Shown here in pieces: positions 20,154 to 26,500 of a DNA stretch of 64,000 bases (positions within the stretch are counted from its first letter, which is position 1; every line of letters begins with the position of its first letter). Origin of the DNA: Sphagnum magellanicum. Its lineage: Eukaryota > Streptophyta > Sphagnopsida > Sphagnales > Sphagnaceae. Under the pieces are notes generated by a model, which searched no databases, was not told the origin of the DNA, and saw only the letters and a program-made list of their open reading frames with translations. The stretch is taken from positions 4,092,001 through 4,156,000 of the forward strand of contig CM038919.1 of the NCBI GenBank assembly GCA_021904315.1. The letters run 5' to 3'. The position numbers and the translations under genes were made by a program.

Positions 20154-20933
20154 CGCTGAACAAGAGAGACAAACCTACCTCCCAACAGCAGCGTCTTCAA
20201 CTGGCGATGACCTCAAACCTCGAAAGCCACAACTTCTGGAAGCATCAAATTGATGTCAAAAGCGTCATTTTACACCAAAACTTCCAAGCTTGCTGAGCTG
20301 CTACAACGAGAGGAAAGCAAACACAAGACGGGAAAATGGTAGGGATATGACATGAAGGGAATTTTTTAAAATAGGTTAAGCTGAGCACCCACATCCAACA
20401 CTTTGAAAAACAGATGATCTTGCTGGTAATTTGATTTTTGTCTGCACAATCTTGTCCTCCATTGAATGCAAATTGCTGCCAATCTTCAATCCAATTTCCA
20501 ATGTTGAAAAACAGCGCGATTCTCTCTGCAATCTGATGCGCCAGATAGGGTTGCGAGTCACGGCGACTCTCCGACCAGCGTTCTCCGTTTACATTGAGCC
20601 TTGGGGTTCAGGTTCTTTGAGGGTGAGCGTGATCATAGAACCGGCGGTTACGAGTGCTTCAGACCTCATTTACTTATATAATATTCCTGGGTGGTCGTCT
20701 TTCAGGGGTCGAAGTGCAGTGACTTTGGGTGACAAAACCAGTTTTGGTCCCCCTTTTGTTTGATGTGTATTGGAGTTATCCAGAAAGTCACCTTGTCTTT
20801 GGGCCTGCTTCCACTCCCTATCCCCTCTTGTAGTGGTATCTGCAAAGAAAAGAAATTTTAATACGACTCAATATGAAATGCTGAAACTCATCATCCCGTC
20901 ATCTATCGTTATTTGTCTCTTCATCCATCCCCT

Positions 20934-21005
20934 CATCTGTCCCAATGACGACCACCGCTGCTAGCCTTTCATCTGTCCCAATGACGACCACCGCTGCTAG
21001 CCTTT
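20934..21005. repeat. 36-bp unit repeated twice in tandem
   Basis: Two near-identical copies of a unit starting CATCTGTCCCAATGACG lie head to tail inside Helitron-like element 1. The TGACGACCACCG core resembles TGACGGCCACCG in the 3'-end array further along. Confidence 0.9.
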
Positions 21006-21599
21006 CCTGATGATTGGGGGGAGGTGGGAAAAACAACTACAACAGGGCACTCTGAAAAATTTGGATGCTTGAAATTTATTGGGCATTTTGGGAATTCTCA
21101 TTTTGCTCAATAATAATCGGCACCTTATAAATATTAAAGATAGTTTTCATTTATGCCCAAATTTTTGGGGCATTCTGAAAATGTTCTCATGCTTTAGAAA
21201 TTTTGGGCAGTTTGAGAATTTTTTTTGTCCAAAAAGTTCGAACAGATTATGAAGGTGAAAAAACTTTTTTTTGTCACTGCCCACCATCTCGGGTGCTCTT
21301 CTCACATGAAAGTCAATATGTTGGGTAGACCAACATTGCTAGTCCTGTTGCTGTTCTCCATGGGTTCCTCCAAAAATCCGCACAAGGTTTCCCACTTTCT
21401 TCCATTTGAGAATATTGCGACTGGCCTCGGACCACTTTCTTCACAAAATTTGGATACATCTCTGCCATCCGAAATGCATCCAAATAAACAAAAATATAAA
21501 AGTGAAAAAGAAACACTTTATTTTTATTATACAAAATAATAATAAAAATAGAAAACACATTAAAAAAAAAAAACATAATTTAAAAAAAAAAAAAACTAA

Positions 21600-21882
21600 A
21601 ACATGAACCAAGTTTAAAAAAACAGGGGACTTCACCATGTCTGATGACGGCCACCGGGGCAGATGAATAAAAAATAAAAAAGATAAAAGTTTCTAAAAAA
21701 AACTAAAACATGAACCAAGTTTAAAGAAACAGGTCACTTCACCGTGTCCAATGACGGCCACCGGGGCAGATGAATAAAAAATAAAAAAGATAAAGTTTCT
21801 TTTTAAAAAAATTAAAACATGAACCAAGTTTAAAGAAACAAGGGACTTCACCGTGTCCGAAGGCCACGGGGGTACCCACTAG
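21600..21882 (+). repeat. Three tandem copies of the Helitron 3'-terminal segment
   Basis: Copies start at 21600, 21707 and 21816 (period 107-109 bp), each beginning AACATGAACCAAGTTTAAA and running through GACTTCACC. Only the last copy keeps the hairpin and CTAG terminus. The first two have TGACGGCCACCGGGGCAGATG in its place, followed by an A-rich spacer. Confidence 0.9.
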
Positions 21883-22027
21883 TCTATTTCTATAATATCC
21901 CTGGGTGGTCGTCCTTTCCATCCATTCGTCCCGTCGTTCGTCCTTTGTCCATCTGTCTTCTGTCCATCCGTTCGGTCGTCCATACAAATCGACACCCTGG
22001 AAGCTCCGAGGTTGCCGGCTGCACATA

Positions 22028-22164
22028 TGTTTCTATTTTACAACTGGGGGTCCAAAGAGGTATTTCTATTGGGGGCATGCCCAAAAGTTCCAAAACAATT
22101 ACAGGTGGGCCAATCAATATGGCTCCATTAAAATAAATAAAAAAGTTGTGAGGGCACCCATGAT
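22028..22164. repeat. 137-bp segment, copy 1 (copy 2 at 22421-22556)
   Basis: Both copies run from TGTTTCTATTTT through GGGGGCATGCCC to GAGGGCACCCATGAT with only a few differences. They are direct repeats about 390 bp apart inside Helitron-like element 2. Confidence 0.9.
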
Positions 22165-22420
22165 CTAATCACAGGGTGCACCACCTGTCTCTCCCCGTCC
22201 TCCCCTCCCTCCTCCCCCTCTGCTGAGTTTGACACTACAGCTTTCTGCCCACCAAGAATGGGAAGGAAATAAACCAAGAATGAAATAATAATAATTTAAG
22301 ATGATGATGATGTTGTAGAAATGTTGCAAGTTAGCCAATAGCACCTGGGTGTTTAACCCATATGCTTTGCCCAAAGTTCAAACTCCCCTATAAATAAACT
22401 ATAATCCAAGGGTGCAAATT

Positions 22421-22556
22421 TGTTTCTATTTTGCAACTGGGGTCCAAAGAGGTACTTCTATTGGGGGCATGCCCCAAAGTTCCAAAACAATTGCAGGTGG
22501 GCCAATCAATATGGCTCCATTAAAATAAATAAAAAAGTTGTGAGGGCACCCATGAT
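22421..22556. repeat. 137-bp segment, copy 2
   Basis: Direct repeat of 22028-22164, with an indel of one base. See copy 1. Confidence 0.9.
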
Positions 22557-22866
22557 GTAATTAATATGAATCACACTATGACATTCCTAAGAACACCCTA
22601 GCTATTCACCTTTTTTATTAATTAGATGAGGTGCCTCAAAATTTTGTTGTTTTGTTTTTCACAATGAACCAATTTGATTGGCCCATCACACACAAAAATG
22701 AAACTATGGAGGCTCCCCAAGATAGAAGGTTCTATTTTGAAGTATTGACTTCCTCCCCTTTGGCCCACCCATATGGGTGAAAGGAGGACAACAATTTGCC
22801 GGCTGCACACCATCCCTTTGCTGAATCTGACATTCCAACTTTCCGTCCGTGAAAAATTAACTTTTA

Positions 22867-23480
22867 TTGTTGTTGTGAGTTTGCAGAGATCTGAAGTTTC
22901 GGAATTCGAAGTTGGCAGCTTCTTCTTCTTCTTCAAGTCTGACTAATTTCCGACTTTGATCATCAGGTTTGCAAATTTCGAGTTAGCAAAAGAAAGGGTT
23001 CTACAAATTTGGAAACTGCATTCGGTTTTTCTGTTTTTTTTTTTTTTTTTCCAGTGTTGGGTCTTCTTCAGATCCGTCTGTGAGAAATTAGCTTCTGTTG
23101 TTGTTGTGGGTTTGCAGAGATCTGAAGTTTCGAAATTTGAAGTTGGCAACTTTTTCTTCTTCTTCAAGTCTGACTGATTTCCGACTTTGATCATCAGGTT
23201 TGCAAATTTTGAGTTAGCATAAGAAAGGGTTCAACAAATTTGGAAACTGCATCCGGTTTTTCTGTTTTTTTTTTAGTGTTGGGTCTTCTTCAGATCCGTC
23301 CATGAAAAATTAAGGAAGTAAATAAGGCTCTTCTTGAGGTGGCTGTTTTTATTTTGTTCTGTTGTTGTTGTGGGTTTGCAGAGATTTGAAGTTTCGGAAT
23401 TCGAAGTTGGCAGCTTCTTCTTCTTCTTCAAGTCTGACTGATTTTCGACTTTATCATCAGGTTTGCAAATTTCAAGTTAT
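22867..23480. repeat. Three diverged tandem copies of a 230-260-bp unit
   Basis: Units begin near 22867, 23097 and 23360 with TGTTGTTGTGxGTTTGCAGA. Each continues through TCTGAAGTTTCGxAATTC, a CTTCTTCTTC run and CGACTTTxATCATCAGGTTTG. The first two also share a T-run and GGGTCTTCTTCAGATCCGTC. The composition resembles a plant 5' UTR or leader, which would fit a captured gene promoter region (inference). Confidence 0.85.
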
Positions 23481-23734
23481 TTCAAGTTATTAGTTATTAC
23501 CAGGTTTTTGTGTTGTTACCATCTGTGCATGTTGTGTTTGTTTTTTTTTTTATAAATTTTTTTAAGCCACCCTTTCGGTTTGTTCATTTTTCTGAATTTA
23601 TAGAGCATTTGATTTCTGTGTTTTGGGATTGTTGTTCACATTTTTTGTGTTTCTGTGTGTGTTGGTTTGTCACATCTTTTGTAATTTATTTTGTGTGTTT
23701 GTGTGTGTGTGTGTGTGTGATTTTGTTGTAGTTT

Positions 23735-24040
23735 TTGCAATTTTTATGTGTTGTTGATTTTCTCTCAATTTTTGTTGCAATTTTTGAGTAAATTGATTTT
23801 TTTCAGTTACTACAATTTTTATGTGAGTTGATTTGTCTGAGTTTTTGTTGCAAATCTTATGTTTGTCAATTTTTGTCTCAGTTTTTGTTGCAATTTTTAC
23901 GTGTGTTGACTTTTGTTTGAGTTCTTTTTGCAATTTTTATGTGTGTTGATTTTTGTCTCAGTTTTTGTTGCAATTTGTGAGTGTGTTGATTTGTCTCAAT
24001 TCTTGTAATTTTTGTGGGTGTTGATTTGTCTCAGGTTTTT
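23735..24040. repeat. T-rich 35-45-bp imperfect tandem repeats
   Basis: The phrase TTTTTGTTGCAATTTTTATGTG followed by TTGATTTxTGTCTCA recurs with small changes at least six times. A (GT)n run at 23701-23719 precedes it. The base pattern is like an expanded intron. Confidence 0.75.
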
Positions 24041-24059
24041 GGAACTTTCTGTTGTGTTT

Positions 24060-24144
24060 TGGACACCTTTAACACTGAAGCGGGGAAGAAGATGAGCGAA
24101 AGGATCACAACAGTGAGTGGCAAAATGAAGGAGCTTTTCCAGGT
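24060..24144 (+). pseudogene. Captured exon fragment resembling TOL1 (TOM1-like, VHS protein)
   Basis: The plus strand reads TEAGKKMSERITTVSGKMKELFQ in pieces: TEAGKKMSER (about 24073-24102) followed by ITTVSGKMKELFQ, ending CAG|GTCTCA like an exon with a splice donor. Plant TOL1-type ESCRT-0-like proteins carry a matching N-terminal stretch (…KISAGVSSMSFKVKELFQ) just before the VHS domain. Only this exon is present; the VHS and GAT domains are missing. It lies just before the element's 3' terminus, a common position for host fragments picked up by Helitrons. The match is short, so identity is tentative. Confidence 0.45.
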
Positions 24145-24225
24145 CTCAACACAAGTTAACATGCGAACCAAGTTTAAAGAAACCGGGGGACTTCACAGTG
24201 GCCGAAGGTCACGGGCACCCACTAG

Positions 24226-26500
24226 TCTGAAGGATAATATGCCCTGTAGTCATGGGTGATTCATAATTATTTTTGCCCCAGAACTTGCTTATATATCAAG
24301 TACACTAATGTGGCCGGTGCTGTTGGCCCAAGTGTGAACCCATTACAAAATAGGGAAACTCAACATGTGAACATTGTTTTGCAATGCATGTATTGATATT
24401 TTTGAACAACCAAATATGAAAGGAAATCATGCTTGAATTGGATGGTAAGCTTTCAAGTGTTACCACGTTCTCAACTAATCTTTCCTTCCAAAACCTAGGC
24501 TTTTGGAATTTATTTGAATTTTCAGCGGCAGAAATCACTTTAAAAACCAATATCTCCCACATTCTAAATCCAAACCTTACCAAATAAATTCCACTAAACC
24601 TTGCTCATCAAGATCTTTCCAACAACACCAAAGGCACATTCCAATTCTTCTGAAATTTTCAGCGACAATTTAATTTACTTTTCATTGAAAAATCATTCAA
24701 TATTCAAAAACTTTTGCACCACAAGTCCAAATCTCATGGAACCAAGCCCATGTACCCCTCCTGAAGCATCCCGGTTTAGTGGATTTCATAACTACAAAAC
24801 AAAACAAGTGGCTTTGCCACAAGATGCTCTGTCTTGAAAATAAGGTATTACATTTAATGATTTAATATGAACTCACTCAAGTTATATTGGATGACAAATT
24901 ATATCGGATGAAAGTTTGTTGGTTTTATTAAAGACCATGAATTTATTTTTTTCACATTTGTATTAAGAAATGAAATTTTCTAACCCTCTTAGAATTCATT
25001 GTGGACATGTAGAAATTGAAACCATAGTTCCATTATCTTTGCTTTAACCATACAAATGAATATAAAATTATAAATAACCATATTTTTTTTAAAAATCCAA
25101 GTTTTCCAAACTTGAATAATGTAGACAATTTTTAGCAGTGTGCATGAAATATTTCGATGTTTGAAACAAAATAATAAATTGAATGGATATAATTTATATG
25201 GAAATATTTTTAATTCTTAGTCTCATTTTCATTTTTTGGCCCATTTTTTCTTGTAAATAGATTCATTTAGTATGTGAGTGTTGTGATTAGATCAATTCAT
25301 GATTATGATTTTTTTTCCATTTGATGATTGCACTTTTACAATAGTTTTTGAAATTAACCACATCTAATGACACAATGTGTTCATCTTTTTTCACTTAGAC
25401 CAAGGTCACGATCTCTTGGTGTTCCTAATTTGGTTGTTTATTTCTTAATGGGTTTCATTTTTAAAAAAAATTCATTAGATTTTTGAGATTTTCTTTTTCA
25501 TTTGATTTATTTTTGCATCTTAATGTTGCACCAAATTGGACAAAATTGTCACAACTAATTTCAATGAAGCTTGTGCAAATGAATTAAAATTCTATCAATG
25601 TTTTTGATACTAATTAAATTTTGTTGTTTTCTTATTTGCAGGAATGAGTTTATTAAATCATAGAAGAATAGGAAGAATTCAACCTACTTAGCTTCTCAAA
25701 AAGTTGATCATCTTCACCATAGGTATCTTCATTGTTGTATGCTTCCATGTTGAGTGTTGTTGTCATTGACATATATGTTTGTCGATGTTTGGTGTTGTTG
25801 TTTGGATGATTGTGGCCATAGACAAATGATGATCATTGATTTTGATAATGCTATGCTGTTGTAGACCATGCTACACCAATTTGGAGGAATGTGATGTGGA
25901 AGAAAGTTTTTGGAGGAATCAAAGATGTAGTTCAAAGGCTTGCAATTTAGAAGAATGAATTGTTCAAGAAGGTTTTCAAAATTACATGCATGTTGTGCTT
26001 GTGTTATGTGTTTGTGAATGCTTCCATGAAACTTGTGTGGGTCTATTGTTGCAATTATTACAAGATTGTGGACTCTTCCATTGCTCCTACATGTGCATGT
26101 TGTCATGATTATTGCAAGATCATAAGCTCCTCCAATTTAGAGGAGTGGATTGTTGCAAAAAAGGTTATAAGTTGGAATTATAAGTTAGCATCAAATTAGC
26201 AAGAGGATTTTTCCAAATGGTAACTAACATTGAATTTTTGCTAAAAATTCCATGGATTTGCTAGATTCAATGATAGCTAAATTAAACACTATCCCTAACT
26301 TATTTTCTCATGCCACATAGACATTTCATGTAGGACTTGATATTACCTAATATTGTATGTGTGAACACAAGGTTAAATTTGTTGGTTATGGCATTGATTT
26401 AACTTTCTTTTACTTGTAAGTGTGGCCCTCCCTTTAGTAGTTTCATATTTTCATGAAGATTTGTTTCACTATTTGAAAGATTATTTAATGAAAAAATTGA
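24226..26500. other. AT-rich spacer between Helitrons and VHA-e
   Basis: Short A/T-rich ORFs only; none has a recognisable domain. A TGTTGT/GATGATT-rich patch lies at 25730-26110. No gene supported. Confidence 0.5.

Follow-up and report, generated by a model that had tools for sequence, protein, structure and literature searches.

Two abutting Helitrons in Sphagnum magellanicum are probably the result of successive insertions at one site

The window considered here is a 64-kb stretch of the Sphagnum magellanicum genome (C13:4092001-4156000; the genome comprises 439 Mb in 31 contigs, designated here by C and a number), in which two Helitron-like elements lie head to tail on the forward strand with no base between them. 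Most probably these are two different non-autonomous Helitrons that were inserted successively at one site, the later one precisely at the boundary of the earlier. The evidence comes from the ends of both elements, from the recurrence of the same junction elsewhere in the genome with partners combined in different ways, from a target box in the flanks of other copies, and from two loci, on C9 and C12, where a duplicated flank was used for a further insertion.

The paired elements and their junction

The junction (21879..21884, plus strand) was read directly from the sequence: the CTAG that closes element 1 (21879-21882) is followed at once by the TC that opens element 2 at 21883, as the original prediction had stated, and the head-to-tail joining of two Helitron-like units is supported. 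Element 1 (20669..21882, plus strand) has 1214 bp; element 2 (21883..24225, plus strand) has 2343 bp, begins with TC and ends with CTAG followed by T. The start of element 1 had been placed at 20666, which is three bases too early; since copies of the family read R|TCTACTTATATAATATYCC, the true start is at 20669. Its left end is A(20668)|TTTACTTATATAATATTCC, with TC changed to TT, and its right end is CTAG. With this start, the pair as a whole occupies a canonical site, with A at 20668 and T at 24226. The 3' CTRR of canonical Helitrons is present in both elements (CTAG at 21879-21882 and at 24222-24225) and the 5' TC holds overall, element 2 having TC and element 1 TT. The inner junction is G|T (21882/21883) and not A|T, which is expected wherever one Helitron abuts another, as in the maize pair described in the relevant portion of PMC2267711.

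Relatives of element 1 on C3 and C15 align with its positions 3-1214, that is, up to its last base, with 86-87% identity, and therefore element 1 is an independent unit with true ends; neither a 5' motif lying inside a larger single element, nor a CTAG and TC that are not termini, the two outcomes named beforehand as contrary to the pairing, was seen. As for element 2, its left 679 bp match, at 93% identity, the downstream element of a further junction, on C8, and its last 69 bp are 97% identical to an upstream element on C18.

The original prediction also held that a 5' motif and a 3' terminus are common to both units, which the BLASTN alignment of the ends bears out. The left terminal sequence (LTS) of element 1 (20669..20687, plus strand) contains the shared motif, and the first 40 bases of the two elements are identical in 32 of 42 aligned columns. 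The right terminal sequences (RTSs), at 21817..21882 in element 1 and 24160..24225 in element 2 (both on the plus strand), end in CACTAG and agree in 57 of 69 aligned columns; hence the 68-bp 3' termini, which had been called near-identical, are related without being so close. The shared hairpin is present in the sequence as a stem GTGNCC-GAA-GGNCAC (GTGTCC-GAA-GGCCAC in element 1, GTGGCC-GAA-GGTCAC in element 2). Folding of the DNA is not convincing as proof of these hairpins, given z values of -0.25 for element 1 and -2.50 for element 2, whose best fold is a different pairing. The interiors are unrelated, the similarity detected with BLASTN being made up of the 3' end, internal copies of that 3' end and 32 bases at the 5' end, and so the units differ in length and interior, as had been noted.

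No closed open reading frame of at least 120 amino acids overlaps element 1 or element 2, neither of them encodes a RepHel protein, and Rfam and tRNA scans of the 64-kb window found nothing. A candidate source of RepHel exists in the genome, where at least 150 Helitron_like_N matches exceed the cut-off (150 scored of 576 candidates), two of them in open frames of more than 1000 amino acids without an inner stop.

On the right side of the pair lies the host flank TCTGAAGGATAATATG (24226..24241, plus strand), with a target-like box, GATAATA, at +8. A third Helitron of the family starting at 24226 was ruled out: the 40 other matches to 24220-24420 that were scored, from 412 candidates, stay to the right of 24285 and begin at 24285-24306, which is the edge of another repeat.

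Family ends and the base preceding the insertion

Genome similarity and family counts are lower bounds for repeats. The left-end motif shared by both elements has 101 genome matches within 2 mismatches, and the core of the right end, CGAAGGTCACGGGTACCCACTAG, has 576 within 2 mismatches; the reversed patterns have 0 in both cases. Among the 99 left ends that could be read, 71 were classified as solo by rule, 18 follow directly on CTAG, CTAA or TTAA, and in 10 the start is damaged or unusual. Manual reading reduced these 18 candidate abutments to 15 (L037, L095 and L118 lack the hairpin), so that 15 of the 99 abut the 3' end of another Helitron exactly; one of them, L019, follows a short duplicate of such an end. 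The solo set is imperfect, since one of the 71 (C14:3767216) follows a damaged right end.

The base preceding the 71 solo copies is A in 55, G in 14 and T in 2, and their first two bases are TC in 65 and TT in 6; further upstream, T is found at -2 in 53 and C or T at -4 in 55, whereas -1 is A or G in 69. At the other side, 82 exact right ends (64 newly fetched plus 18) are followed by T in 67 cases, by A in 14 and by C in one. Insertion between A and T is therefore a preference of this family and not a strict rule. This bears on the argument that an independent second insertion should have left an A before the TC, which fails on two counts: 14 of the 71 solo copies have G there, and an insertion at the A|T of a resident's left edge also leaves CTAG|TC, a point already made, within the portion of their report that concerns us, by Du et al. 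2008 (PMC2267711).

Thirteen of the 14 right ends followed by A continue as AAA(C/T)(A/T)AAAT, and the remaining one has a similar continuation; wherever the surroundings could be seen, these right ends are internal to longer elements. At C3:1802303, C8:10614543, C8:12559018 and other places, AAAC(A/T)AAAT follows an internal right end and a further right end lies downstream, as though the first terminator had been bypassed and another acquired. In addition, five right ends (C15:9911449, C17:8233772, L150, L187 and L189) have the common 3' flank TACT(C/T)TATAATGAATCT, which might be a repeat hit at one position or a flank that moved along.

Recurrence of the junction and mixing of partners

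A 26-base pattern of the junction has 32 genome matches within 3 mismatches, the present junction among them, and the reversed pattern has 0; a hairpin is lacking upstream of at least one match (C2:2977918). Likewise, 10 of the 67 exact right ends followed by T run on into a left end of the family. Arrays occur at several loci, such as the one on C2 with junctions at 12611579, 12612332 and 12613078, where neighbouring units are approximately 90% identical over 750-790 bp.

Each of 31 pattern-derived junction loci was compared with every other, over at most 1500 bases to either side. Upstream, J2, J17 and J27 are 92-94% identical over 1.5 kb, but the downstream partner of J27 belongs to a different subfamily. 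J2 and J17, 92% identical upstream over 1.5 kb, have downstream partners of the same subfamily (91.1%); nevertheless, J17's downstream element is equally similar to those of J26 (91.6%) and J30 (91.9%). J14 and J18, the latter being the present locus, are 93% identical over 680 bp in their downstream parts, with different upstream partners. In J23 and J26 the upstream element is of the type of a second family, F1, at both of its ends, the left end of the one in J23 being a variant. An A precedes the first element wherever its left end can be clearly made out (J18 and J22, less clearly J1). Partners that differ in subfamily, and sometimes in family, argue against a concatemer and for consecutive insertions.

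The idea that F1 right ends are simply foreign to the studied family had to be softened: F1-type right ends are found 0.8-1.4 kb downstream of the studied family's left end in L010, L015, L019, L075 and L083, and right-end types may be exchanged. Separately, the downstream elements of two CTCG|TC junctions (C7:9524 and C7:5731134; L062 and L063) differ by about 1%, suggesting a recent duplication of an array.

Duplicated flanks on C9 and C12

Two loci act as natural tests of what fixes the position of an insertion. On C9 (L019, around 17692681-17692699 and 17694002), the sequence without the inserted element consists of two tandem copies of ACTAGTACGATATAATACC following the start of a right end of a third family, F2 (313 matches to its right end within 2 mismatches), and the inserted element separates ACTAG from the TACGATATAATACC of the second copy. 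In the simplest scenario, the F2 element came first, a 19-bp duplication of the Helitron 3' end and its flank followed, and an element of the studied family was then inserted at G|T. On C12 (L021; 3073591 and 3072556), the flank of an element is duplicated on both sides of it (25 of 27 bases), and the next element is found in the second copy of the flank, in the same place relative to the box, at T|T. Together, these loci suggest that the insertion point is set by the downstream box, with the preceding base being less important.

Target box downstream of the insertion site

Leaving aside those that run into left ends, there were 57 T-followed flanks, of which 52 discovery flanks remained once near-duplicates were removed. 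Positions +7 to +13 are rich in A/T in these flanks, and TATAATA-like sequences are concentrated at +5 to +10; with this range, which was chosen after viewing the 52, the box is found in 20 of them. As a hold-out, 17 right ends with one mismatch were taken from among the matches listed, all on C1, and in their 13 T-followed flanks the box was present in 5, versus 420 of 18127 background sites (2.3%; p = 7e-6), the background being the R|T sites of this window alone, outside the pair. The studied family's own left end, TCTACTTATATAATAT, carries the same box approximately 2 bp further downstream than the targets do. When left ends were scored as targets against the background sites, that of the family reached the 94th percentile, a variant left end the 98th, and that of element 2 the 82nd.

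The F1 family offered a comparison. Its right ends have 1345 genome matches within 3 mismatches, and 20 of its flanks were read: 19 start with T, TATAATA occurs in one, and at +6 to +10 there are TAAATG-like sequences in 6 and GTAAA-like sequences in 7, the motifs having been chosen after viewing the data. The prediction that (G)TAAATG would be found near +8, noted before the F1 left end was read, held in the main: this end is TATATTGTAAAGG, with GTAAA at +7 versus +8 in the targets, and then GG rather than TG. None of 4000 sampled background sites fits the F1 target profile as well as the F1 left end does, and the cross fits are weaker, 8.2% of background sites fitting F1 targets as well as the studied family's left end does. 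For the studied family, 3.3% of background sites fit its targets as well as its own left end, and therefore its case is only moderate. F1 also forms junctions, its junction pattern having 41 genome matches and the reversed control 0; its left end has 228 matches, and 21 of the 100 listed coincide with an F1 junction.

Proposed mechanism and order of insertion

An occupied site, or the left end of the resident in it, may remain a target. In choosing where to cut, RepHel would rely on the sequence 3' of the T more heavily than on the A before it. A site would then stay usable with a resident located 5' of it, a newcomer entering between the resident's CTAG and the flanking T; the resident's left end, with its own box, could itself be a target, and in this case the newcomer would enter upstream, at A|T. 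Either order of insertion would yield CTAG|TC, and the frequency of the junctions suggests some additional recognition of the resident end. One tentative extension, for which we would claim rather less than an even chance, is that target choice is a weak recognition of LTS-like sequence, in which a family-specific box mimics the family's own LTS at nearly the same spacing; residents would then be landing pads, and arrays self-seeding.

Several observations weigh against this account. The box is absent from most of the discovery flanks, its offset in the family left end differs by the 2 bp mentioned above, and the left end of element 2 scores only at its 82nd percentile. The boxes of the two families are not cleanly separate, since the studied family's flanks are also enriched for F1-like sequences (GTAAA-like in 13 of 52, TGTAAA-like in 9 of 52). 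Moreover, the box, which 2.3% of background R|T sites carry, cannot by itself account for the frequency of junctions, so that recognition of the resident end must be assumed. An additive score of the order of insertion placed the site at the left edge of element 2, as a target for element 1, in the 97th percentile of T sites, and the site after element 1, as a target for element 2, in the 75th; however, this score is biased against CTAG, its upstream half having been built without left ends preceded by CTAG, CTAA or TTAA, and the downstream half alone gives little difference (0.18 versus -1.37 bits). As evidence for element 1 as the newcomer the score was rejected for this make-up of the solo set, and the line for J22, a placeholder flank, was not used. 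A comparison of age between downstream and solo elements showed no difference (p = 0.78 and 0.90 for distance to consensus, 0.34 and 0.44 for nearest neighbour), in a weak test where the subfamily II alignment mixes subtypes (distances up to 0.5) and the downstream elements C9:17692700, C15:12074502 and C19:17356172 were labelled solo. Finally, both the maize pair and the locus on C9 favour a newcomer on the downstream side. Which of elements 1 and 2 came second here is about even, an earlier slight leaning to element 1 having been given up because of the bias of the score.

Alternative explanations

The explanation favoured by the original prediction was a rolling-circle concatemer, or the read-through of one terminator into a neighbouring copy; neither is supported. 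A concatemer would stem from one transposition event, with more than one round of the circle inserted as a multimer, and it has precedents: precise CTAG-TC joints are known in the circles of Helraiser, as described in part of PMC4778049, and head-to-tail junctions and tandem arrays in plants and bats are cited, in a passage of PMC5876387, in support of rolling-circle transposition. Such an origin calls for identical or nearly identical units, and those of the pair differ in length and interior; even the neighbours in the C2 array are, at their approximately 90% identity, not copies of each other. Upstream types are also paired with different downstream types (J2, J17 and J27; J14 and J18), and F1-type elements stand upstream of the studied family's left end in J23 and J26. 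For the present locus the concatemer is largely refuted by the differing interiors, and we regard it as very improbable. It is unlikely, if less so, that the pair is a composite or read-through unit, joined elsewhere and moved together by a transposase that passed the first CTAG. The 13 of the 82 exact right ends that lie within longer elements where in view, which suggest that right ends have been read through in this family, and the likeness of J2 and J17 on both sides, would fit this possibility; nevertheless, no second copy of the pair was found among 40 scored of 676 junction-spanning candidates, nor among the 31 junction loci; J26 and J30 have downstream elements at least as similar to that of J17 as J2's is, and the first joining would be left unexplained. 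That an assembly error, a tandem duplication or end-joining brought the elements together is the least credible of these explanations: sites of this kind can carry short tandem duplications (19 bp on C9, 27 bp on C12), but chance end-joining would not give the same join at 32 places, and at 41 in F1, with 0 in the reversed controls.

Successive insertion at a terminus, which the original prediction had kept as a fallback, fits best. A narrower form of it supposes that the newcomer always enters downstream, Rep recognizing the right end of the resident (hairpin plus CTAG) and inserting at G|T. In the part of Du et al. 2008 (PMC2267711) that deals with maize lines, three have the left element only, two have both and six have neither, and the element on C9 was inserted after a duplicated CTAG. 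On the other hand, solo targets do not resemble CTAG, AG occurring once in the 71 beside the predominant T at -2 (sites ending in CTAG are excluded from this set), and the CTAG used on C9 is a short duplicate located 19 bp beyond the CTAG that follows the hairpin. This narrower form is conceivable, and somewhat short of an even bet.

Relation to known systems

The head-to-tail Helitron junction itself is a known kind, in maize and in bats. In the maize r1 region, as presented in the pertinent part of Du et al. 2008 (PMC2267711), the first CTAG is directly followed by TC, with G/T instead of A/T, and the interiors are unlike, as here; the pair was read as the result of consecutive insertions, with both orders discussed and the order left open. 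In contrast with the present study, that part of the report holds one case, with no genome-wide count or target motif. The Helitrons of Myotis lucifugus (Pritham and Feschotte 2007, as cited in the same part of PMC2267711) also form perfect head-to-tail junctions and gave rise to the same argument from the missing A that the original prediction used; however, the bat case was suggested to represent tandem repeats, whereas the units described here are unlike. Tandem and self-inserted Helitrons of fungi are discussed in a section of PMC5148889.

Helraiser, in the portion of PMC4778049 relevant here, shares the precise RTS-LTS joint, a preference for AT that is not absolute (46 of 1751 elsewhere) and an A/T preference that is strongest on the 3' flank; it differs in that its new insertions are not clustered around donor sites, and no LTS-like box appears in that portion. 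The bacterial element IS30 likewise targets both hot-spot sequences and its own ends, according to the part of PMC9333248 concerned, but it cuts both strands of a circle and serves as an analogy only.

No description of an LTS-like, family-specific target box was found in searches limited to open-licence PMC papers. Helitron target specificities are said to have been reported by Yang and Bennetzen in 2009. Head-to-tail junctions, which have been cited for rolling-circle concatemers, are here better read as repeated independent insertions at Helitron ends, and therefore such junctions alone are no proof of multimeric replication. Should the LTS-like target rule also apply in other genomes, it would give a testable account of how Helitrons choose their sites and pile up. 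The matter is also relevant for annotation, since arrays could be mistaken for single elements.

Internal repeats of the two elements

The 3' subterminal region of element 1 is present as 2.5 tandem copies of 107 bp (21588..21858, plus strand), detected with Tandem Repeats Finder at 90% matches and also as direct repeats. A tandemly copied 3' subterminal region of about 107 bp is likewise seen in several relatives (L002, L005, L007 and L008), so that a minisatellite adjoins the right end. Element 2 contains a unit of 231 bp in approximately two copies (22842-23313), with a partial third at 23357-23452, which is possibly captured sequence.

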